This document shows positions 1,696 through 4,683 of a stretch of 41,162 bases of DNA, one piece after another. Each line of letters starts with the position of its first letter. Position 1 is the stretch's first letter. The stretch is from an uncultured Bacteroidales bacterium (GTDB lineage: Bacteria > Bacteroidota > Bacteroidia > Bacteroidales > Paludibacteraceae), in NCBI GenBank assembly GCA_903830915.1, contig CAIKVR010000006.1, positions 1-41,162 of the forward strand. The letters run 5' to 3'. Made by a program: the position numbers and the translations under genes. The notes under the pieces were generated by a model, which was not told the DNA's origin, searched no databases, and was given only the letters and a program-made list of their open reading frames with translations.

Positions 1696-3441
1696 ATGGA
1701 AAATTTTATAGTTTCAGCACGTAAATACCGCCCTGCCACATTTAACTCGGTAGTTGGTCAGTCCTCTCTTACCACCACTTTGAAGAATGCCATTAAAAGC
1801 AATCATTTAGCTCATGCTTATCTGTTTTGCGGACCACGTGGCGTTGGTAAAACTACCTGTGCACGTATTTTTGCCAAAACCATAAACTGTTTAAATCTTA
1901 CAGCCGATTACGAAGCCTGTAATGAGTGTGAATCCTGTAAATCGTTCAACGAACAACGATCGTATAACATTCACGAACTGGATGCTGCTTCAAATAATGG
2001 AACCGATGACATAAAGTATCTGATTGAACAGGTACGCATTCCACCCCAAATTGGTAAATACAGTGTATATATTGTAGATGAGGTTCACATGCTTTCTACT
2101 GCTGCGTTCAATTCTTTTCTGAAAACACTTGAAGAACCACCTGCACATGCCATTTTCATTTTGGCAACAACAGAAAAACACAAAATAATTCCTACGATTC
2201 TTTCACGTTGTCAGATATACGATTTTAACCGAATTACGGTTTCCGACACTGTGAAACATCTTCAAATGGTAGCCGAAAAAGAAGGTGTGACTGTGGATGT
2301 GAATGGACTGAACGTGGTAGCTCAGAAAAGTGATGGCGGTATGCGTGATGCATTATCCATTTTCGACCAGTTAGTTAGTTTCTGTGGTAACACAATAACC
2401 TATCAGGGAGTTATCGAAAATTTGAACGTACTGGATTATGAATATTATTTCCGGTTGGTTGAAGCTTTCTTAAAAGGCGATGTTTCCAGCACATTATTAA
2501 TCTTCAACGATGTACTGAACAAAGGCTTTGACGCTCACCATTTTATTACCGGATTGAGTTCGCATCTCCGCGATGTACTTGTAAGCAAAGATCCGCAAAC
2601 AATTGAATTACTTGAAGTTGGACACGATATTGGCGAACGGTATAAATCTCAGGCTCAAATTTGTTCACCTGACTTTTTGTTTCAGGCATTGAAAATAAGT
2701 AATGACTGCGATATAAATTATCGTCAAAGCAAGAACAAGCGACTGCTGGTTGAACTTACATTAATTCGTCTCTGTCAGTTGACGGATGAAAAAAAAAACT
2801 CTAATCTGATTGAAGATAAAATTTCTCCGATTCAGAAAATTCAATCTGAAAATTCAGCAGTTACTACATCAACTACTTCTTCTATACAACCAAAGACCAT
2901 AGAAGCACTTAAACAAGTTCCGCATGTAAGTCTGAAAACAAAACCGGAAGTGCATGAGGTTAAACCAACATCACAAAGACCGGGTAGTATTTCTATTTCT
3001 ACTCCAATTGTAACTTCATCTCCAACTCCTATATACGAGACCAAACCAAGCTCCACTTCCCAACCTGAAGTTATTTTGGATGTGAAATTCACAAACGACG
3101 AATTAGAAATTGCCTGGTTACAGTTTTCGGATATTATTCAGGATCAGGTGCGTATGAAAAGTTTTATACTTAATACCAAACCTGAATTAATTTCAGAAAA
3201 TAAGTTTGAAATAAAAGTGAGTAATCAATCACAAGAAAAGGAACTCCTGAAGCTTGAAAAAGATCTTATTCCATTTCTTCGGGCGCATCTGAAAAACTCT
3301 AATGTGGAAATGCAAATAACTATGGCCGTAGAAAGCGAATCACAACGCAATAACTCACCTGAAGATAGGTATAGAATTTTAGCCGAACAAAATCCAGCAT
3401 TAGATATTTTGAAAAATGGATTGATGCTTGAAATAGACTAA
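1696..3441 (+). CDS. dnaX: DNA polymerase III subunit gamma/tau
   Basis: The 581-residue AAA+ clamp-loader subunit loads the sliding clamp in replication. Residues 46-53 are the Walker A motif GPRGVGKT. Cys65, Cys75, Cys78 and Cys81 form the zinc module. DEVH at 128-131 is the Walker B box, and SRC at 170-172 is the sensor/arginine-finger motif. Domains I-III run to about residue 360. A Ser/Thr/Pro-rich linker follows, then a C-terminal tau-type domain from about 460. Codons 365-368 contain ten consecutive A bases (2789-2798). In both other frames this run is followed by a stop within five codons, which would give a gamma-sized product of about 369 residues. That programmed form is inference. 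The gene stands alone, with a convergent neighbour downstream. Confidence 0.97.
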   Translation: MENFIVSARKYRPATFNSVVGQSSLTTTLKNAIKSNHLAHAYLFCGPRGVGKTTCARIFAKTINCLNLTADYEACNECESCKSFNEQRSYNIHELDAASNNGTDDIKYLIEQVRIPPQIGKYSVYIVDEVHMLSTAAFNSFLKTLEEPPAHAIFILATTEKHKIIPTILSRCQIYDFNRITVSDTVKHLQMVAEKEGVTVDVNGLNVVAQKSDGGMRDALSIFDQLVSFCGNTITYQGVIENLNVLDYEYYFRLVEAFLKGDVSSTLLIFNDVLNKGFDAHHFITGLSSHLRDVLVSKDPQTIELLEVGHDIGERYKSQAQICSPDFLFQALKISNDCDINYRQSKNKRLLVELTLIRLCQLTDEKKNSNLIEDKISPIQKIQSENSAVTTSTTSSIQPKTIEALKQVPHVSLKTKPEVHEVKPTSQRPGSISISTPIVTSSPTPIYETKPSSTSQPEVILDVKFTNDELEIAWLQFSDIIQDQVRMKSFILNTKPELISENKFEIKVSNQSQEKELLKLEKDLIPFLRAHLKNSNVEMQITMAVESESQRNNSPEDRYRILAEQNPALDILKNGLMLEID

Positions 3442-4270: not shown

Positions 4271-4657
4271 TCAGAGTGGTGAAACACCAAATTTATCGGG
4301 GTTGGTATACATTTACATTAAAAGCCGACCAATTTATCCGTTTAACTCAATATTTGTATTATGTATATTGTCAGAAATATAGCCACAATTGAGAGCGAAA
4401 TCAAGCCAAACAAGTGTTTCGCTATTTTCACCCAAACAATCAATAATCTTTAATAGAAAGTGCTTATGGTAGTCACGTTTTCGATAAGCTTCAGCCATAT
4501 TTGCACAAACAGAACGTGGTGAGCGGCGAATTTGATCAGTCAATGAATACTTTTCCTCTTTCGGGAAGTTCAATGTAATTCTAAATATTTCAGTGGCTTG
4601 TAAAAAAGCCTTTTGATAAGCCAATAAATCCTTAAAACCTTGTGCTTTACTATTCAT
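4271..4657 (-). pseudogene. S23-type four-helix-bundle protein, decayed at the C-terminus
   Basis: The frame encodes a S23/four-helix-bundle family protein (first described from intervening sequences in 23S rRNA genes; related to Avd). Hallmarks are FKDLLAYQKA, then SLTDQIRRSPRSVCANMAEAYRKR and WLDFALNCGYIS. Translation stops at TAA 4334-4336, about 108 residues from the preferred ATG at 4657 (the frame opens at 4672). Reading on in the same frame gives IGRLLM, a second TAA at 4313-4315, then MYTNPDKFGVSPL and TGA at 4271-4273. The NPDKFG ending is what complete family members carry, so two nonsense codons seem to have removed the last helix. A shortened protein could still be made. Inverted heptamer arrays flank it on both sides, suggesting the gene and arrays moved as a unit between the MIP18-like and lpxH genes. 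Confidence 0.75.
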
Positions 4658-4683
4658 TCTACTATCAACCATTATTTACCATT

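Follow-up and report, generated by a model that had tools for sequence, protein, structure and literature searches.

Does the dnaX gene of an uncultured Bacteroidales bacterium (Paludibacteraceae) encode one clamp-loader protein or two? The window, by which we mean the whole stretch of 41,162 nucleotides that was analysed (contig CAIKVR010000006.1 of assembly GCA_903830915.1), carries a dnaX gene with ten consecutive A's near the boundary between gamma and tau, and an earlier reading of the letters alone (here called the sequence-only reading) had taken this run to be a slippage site. That view is supported by conservation of the run within the genus, by stops that close the other frames, and by relatives in which tau is displaced from the frame of the core. 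The A10 run is probably (we would put this at about 0.78) a programmed slippage site by which two clamp-loader proteins are made from one gene, most likely through RNA polymerase.

The run and the two predicted products

The gene matches NF011531 (DNA polymerase III gamma/tau) with 822.8 bits against a cut-off of 685. Nucleotides 2788-2799 are G-A10-C, read as GAA AAA AAA AAC (E365 K366 K367 N368). The run and a stop in each of the other two frames are seen directly in the letters, at the positions where the sequence-only reading had placed them (Table 1). With one extra A the message would read ...KKKL and then TAA (369 aa), and with one A fewer ...KKTLI and then TGA (370 aa); two extra A's would give 371 aa, and three extra would bring back tau with one added Lys. 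These predicted lengths agree with the gamma form of about 370 residues that had been proposed.

The run had also been placed just past the clamp-loader core, and this holds up, as the TIGR02397 match ends before it, at 2775. The best PDB matches of the core are chains of the E. coli clamp loader, and the Pfam match to domain III spans residues 245-371. In the predicted structure of the whole protein (mean pLDDT 78.7, pTM 0.57) the last long core helix ends at residue 360 and is, a three-residue turn apart, the final helix ahead of the disordered linker, so that a stop at the A10 run would, in this model, leave the core without the tail. The tau C-terminal region has no PDB matches at E 0.001 or better. 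Weak matches at E of about 0.05, with the SirA:DnaA domain I complex and with DciA, hint at a fold akin to that of replication-initiation proteins, and should be taken as a lead only. Elsewhere in the window there is a short ORF on the minus strand (4334-4672), which by eye we take to resemble the four-helix-bundle proteins of 23S rRNA intervening sequences.

Table 1. Features of the dnaX gene in the window (positions are those of the window)
Feature	Position	Strand	Basis or comment
dnaX, tau as zero-frame product, 581 aa	1696..3441	+	ORF; NF011531 match
Clamp-loader core, domains I-III, common to tau and gamma	1711..2775	+	TIGR02397; PF13177, PF22608, PF12169
Putative A10 slippery run, codons 365-368	2789..2798	+	Direct reading; genus conservation
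Linker, residues 369-457, predicted disordered (pLDDT <50)	2800..3066	+	Predicted structure
TAA	2802..2804	+	Would end the frame after gain of one A or after the ribosome shifts by -1; gamma of 369 aa
TGA	2807..2809	+	Would end the frame after loss of one A (gamma of 370 aa) or gain of two (371 aa)
C-terminal region confined to tau, residues 467-581; a folded domain is predicted for most of it	3094..3438	+	Predicted structure

Conservation of the run among relatives

Within the genus, an A9-A11 run is observed in 42 of 42 unique loci that have a visible linker (at least 120 nt); as the sequence-only reading implied for close relatives, it is neither absent nor interrupted. These loci come from 48 genomes searched, the window's included, leaving out three with no convincing dnaX match (G003, G007, G024), one that ends before the site (G034), one duplicate (L031), and one locus with A11 and a short linker (L044). 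The stops are conserved as well, both alternative frames being closed within 30 nt in all 33 intact genus loci.

Across the Bacteroidota, A9 or longer is found in 192 of 270 unique loci (27 of the 28 same-class loci), and for 58 of the 84 genus codes sampled at least one locus has such a run at the boundary. The run length is A10-A11 in 169 of the 270 loci and A7-A8 in 20. The linker lacks an A9 run in 78 loci, including 32 of 84 from the same family, and gamma made by an A run is therefore not universal. On a core-protein tree of the 270 loci (FastTree; the core translations of two rows, L173 and L176, contain a stop) there are 27 changes of run presence, gains and losses pooled. Loci without A9 include L051, L054, L056, L062, L064, L081-L083, L085, L088-L090 and L093, among others; they are possible natural losses and could reveal what gamma is used for. 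Of the 78, 17 carry A7-A8 and an in-frame heptamer instead. In a group of mostly Pedobacter loci (L106, L111, L113, L115-L118, L120, L122-L124, L127, L128) an A10 run lies 42-63 nt past the core end, compared with 1 nt in the window; judged from these loci, the position of the run appears to drift and its length to be kept.

The 270 loci were assembled from several searches. One search for relatives, with at least 590 loci to choose from, contributed the 80 best. In a second set 99 of 111 genomes were above the cut-off; 92 of them were taken, the other seven being that of the window or of same-genus relatives whose loci were already included. In the phylum set 116 of 118 were above the cut-off, one being the window's own; 68 were taken and 47 left out, the 68 consisting of the 30 best-scoring, 26 others of the same class, and 12 chosen manually, several of which have short open frames. 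Three loci that end before the site (L046, L109, L244), six duplicates and seven loci with less than 120 nt past the core were left out. One locus (L049) is identical to the same-genus L019 over the 500 nt compared.

Chance, composition and stops

The simplest objection is that a Lys-rich linker, encoded by an AT-rich genome, has given rise to the run by accident, and that tau is the sole product here. Runs of A10/T10 or longer occur at 28 distinct places in the 4.74 Mb genome (36 overlapping matches), dnaX included. Around the 27 others, ORFs of at least 100 aa were examined over ~800 nt on either side. Three have a sense-strand A run inside such an ORF with more than 200 nt on either side (L302, L303, L304), and two further runs lie 11 nt (L299) and 24 nt (L297) before the stop of an ORF. 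Judged by reading of the translations, L302 looks like folP (dihydropteroate synthase), L304 like feoB (ferrous iron transporter), and L303 like a secreted protein with a sorting-tail-like end; in each the A10 sits at a KKK, which counts in favour of an accident. The feoB and folP genes also serve as a matched control (30 loci each), and here the outcome is against an accident: A9 or longer is present at the feoB site in 0 of 29 genus relatives and at the folP site in 0 of 29, compared with 42 of 42 at dnaX. The longest runs are A8 in two feoB relatives and A7 in three folP relatives. For feoB, 18 of the 29 relatives are no more than 59-64% identical and may be paralogues, and A9 is found in 0 of the 11 closer ones. 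The sequence-only reading had argued that a run exactly at this boundary is not chance, and this comparison bears it out; a chance origin of the dnaX run appears unlikely.

The protein itself accounts for some of the conservation. When codons were resampled synonymously, given the protein and the codon usage, an A9 run was expected in 61.8 of 205 intact loci and seen in 128, more often than the protein would explain, and for intact genus loci it was expected in 21.6 of 33 and seen in 33. The genus contrast is weak, as the E-K-K-K/N of the protein is in itself favourable to A runs, a point on the side of an accident, and since the protein alone predicts so many runs, the run by itself is weaker evidence in this AT-rich genus than are the stops and the displaced genes. 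The amino acids thus seem to carry part of the conservation of the run, and those residues may themselves be selected for the run.

The stops stand out against control positions. Both other frames stop within 30 nt of the run in 95% of intact genes that have it (n=128), compared with 27% at downstream control positions, and the phylum subset gives the same picture (86% versus 29%, n=29). Counting one locus per genus code, 54 of 58 have both non-tau frames closed over that distance of 30 nt, compared with 22% for the control. In the 63 frame-displaced genes described below, the third frame is also closed within 30 nt. For a ribosomal shift in one direction a single stop would suffice. With both frames closed and with displaced relatives in existence, we regard an accident as very unlikely.

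Relatives with tau in another frame

In 63 of the 270 Bacteroidota loci tau lies out of the frame of the core, and in all 63 there is an A9-A11 run in the overlap; the way in which loci of the phylum set were picked probably inflates their displaced fraction; all 28 same-class genomes are included. Joining core and tail takes a -1 shift (or one extra A) in 46 of the 63 and the opposite in 17. Within the genus the tail is displaced in 8 of 42 loci (8 of 41 relatives), with the break at the A run, and one more locus is too short for a verdict. Of the eight, seven call for a -1 shift, or for one extra A, and one for the opposite. Since tau sits in another frame in these eight relatives, slippage would be needed there to make it at all. 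A genus tree of core DNA (46 rows, 45 with a state) has five tau-frame changes, one of them in an outgroup row, so that the frame of tau seems to have flipped about four times within the genus, on a tree with SH-aLRT support only and many open forks. On the core-protein tree (268 rows with a state) there are 28 tau-frame changes. A MAG labelled Bacteroides fragilis, a label that may be wrong, carries a frame-displaced locus (L057) with a core 72% identical to the window's.

It could be argued that such genes are assembly errors, or gene fissions in which the tail is a separate protein made by internal initiation. Errors come easily in homopolymers, and many of these genomes are drafts split over numerous contigs. 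Displaced genes are nevertheless present in genomes of one contig (L266, L269, L278, L280), which argues against assembly error, and five displaced species form a supported clade in the genus core DNA tree. The tails of displaced genes have dN/dS of 0.06-0.30 in 13 of 24 pairs, the other 11 being saturated and not computable and several of the 13 having dS >1.3; by this measure the out-of-frame tails look selected, which suggests that they are translated. As for internal initiation, an in-frame ATG within the first 15 codons past the run is found in just 3 of the 63 (counting ATG only), and fission would in any case leave the intact genes unexplained. Errors or fissions as a general account of the displaced genes are highly improbable.

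Homopolymer tracts mutate readily, and dnaX is essential in the bacteria in which it has been studied. The first of these facts, together with the frame flips between species, might suggest phase variation at the DNA level, in which the run differs in length between cells and toggles tau. The second makes a tau-off state lethal unless it is rescued by slippage in expression, and the five-species clade is displaced as a whole. Argued mainly from essentiality, phase variation was rated low, and we consider it the least probable of the explanations weighed here.

Polymerase or ribosome

For the window we propose that RNA polymerase would realign on the A run, adding or dropping A's, and so produce a mixed population of mRNAs; the run would be as long as the RNA-DNA hybrid within the polymerase. 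Transcripts with 10+3n A's would give tau, with core, flexible linker and C-terminal domain. In the remaining transcripts TAA or TGA would follow no more than 11 bases from the run, and the product would be gamma, the clamp-loading core alone. We infer that this organism does slip at the run, chiefly during transcription, and that gamma is of use to the cell.

The main rival is that the ribosome makes gamma at this site, by frameshifting or by sliding on poly(A), as in E. coli dnaX. The window run contains in-frame A_AAA_AAA and A_AAA_AAC, a -1 shift would serve the 46 displaced genes mentioned above, and in 20 of the 192 loci with a run the downstream fold has z below -2 (a fraction computed for run sites alone). 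Folding downstream is slightly stronger over the 192 loci (mean z -0.41) than at control positions (-0.20), and in the window the downstream hairpin is weak (z -1.02). Against the ribosome stand the 17 genes that require the opposite direction, since a shift direction that is not conserved is given as a criterion for transcriptional realignment in the available text of PMC3711429. The run also begins in each of the three codon positions (110, 43 and 39 of the 192 loci), and its length peak at 10-11 exceeds what a heptamer needs; this peak fits the polymerase hybrid, described as 9-10 bp in the accessible part of PMC5009743. Visual inspection of the 20 nt before the run in the window shows no Shine-Dalgarno (SD) stimulator, and over the 192 loci there is no excess of SD-like motifs upstream, whether of five bases (8 loci, 4.2%, versus 4.7% at control positions) or of four (22 loci, 11.5%, versus 10.8%). 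An E. coli-type ribosomal signal was accordingly rated low. The anti-SD is described as sequestered in Bacteroidia ribosomes (PMC9976891), and inefficient prfB frameshifting is reported for Flavobacterium johnsoniae (PMC12421855), as far as the available portions of these two papers go. The sequence-only reading had named both mechanisms and chosen neither. Taken together, the two directions, the codon positions, the length, the lack of SD excess and the hidden anti-SD favour RNA polymerase over the ribosome. As the main source of gamma the ribosome is thus unlikely, with a ribosomal contribution possible because any A10 contains slippery heptamers.

A broader reading can be put forward tentatively, and we hold it somewhat more doubtful than not: that slippage of RNA polymerase is the general way to make gamma in Bacteroidota, where the ribosomes of Bacteroidia hide the anti-SD tail, and that the frame of dnaX is free to drift, with tau and gamma repeatedly swapping as the templated product and both being kept. 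Under this broader reading, single-base DNA indels in the run would be nearly neutral because slippage supplies all three frames, and repeated swaps would follow.

Comparison with known systems

The slippage mechanism is already published, and so are two-ORF dnaX genes with A10 (available text of PMC3711429); the additions made here are breadth in Bacteroidota and frame-flipping. Within the literature searched, PMC3711429 is the one paper that brings dnaX, Bacteroidetes and transcriptional slippage together. In the portions available of the literature searched, none shows the phylum-wide extent, both directions in dnaX, or repeated change of frame within one genus; the nine A10 species of PMC3711429 may include Bacteroidota. 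A review from 2012, in the part available, holds that most other bacteria keep no dnaX frameshift signatures and may not make gamma (PMC3290774), and the 58 of 84 genus codes with a run contrast with this view. The disputed role of gamma can thereby be put to the test, by setting lineages that have kept the run against sister lineages from which it is missing. It is also worth noting that annotations of species with a displaced frame may show dnaX as a broken gene or split it in two.

In E. coli, dnaX uses -1 programmed ribosomal frameshifting. The likeness to the window lies in an A-rich slip site and in one gene for both gamma and tau (predicted here). The window has neither the A_AAA_AAG heptamer nor an SD-like stimulator, its hairpin is weak, its run is longer than a heptamer, and both alternative frames are closed. 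At 431 residues (8giy), the gamma chain of E. coli is longer than the products predicted for the window.

The model system for transcriptional slippage is Thermus thermophilus dnaX (Larsen et al. 2000, as presented in the available parts of PMC1088944 and PMC5009743). The window gene resembles it in having a sense-strand run of at least 9 A's with tau in the zero frame, and nearby stops in both other frames that would give a truncated gamma. Slippage is known in T. thermophilus, whereas the likeness of the window rests on sequence. The run is A10 here and A9 there. The sequence-only reading had called the site equivalent in position to those of E. coli and T. thermophilus; this stands for function and not for location, because the window site directly follows domain III, at 63% of the way along the gene, and the T. 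thermophilus run lies about seven-eighths of the way through, according to the accessible text of PMC1088944.

The closest parallel to the displaced genes is the GeneTack set of two-ORF dnaX genes from 2013, with 17 genes in 12 genera, nine of them with 10 A's, described as -1 frameshifts in the available part of the paper (PMC3711429). They share with the window an A run at the tau/gamma boundary, and their arrangement is that of the eight displaced same-genus relatives. In the window itself tau is in frame and no recoding is needed to make it. The GeneTack set is described as -1, whereas the Bacteroidota loci here go in both directions, with the state changing within one genus.
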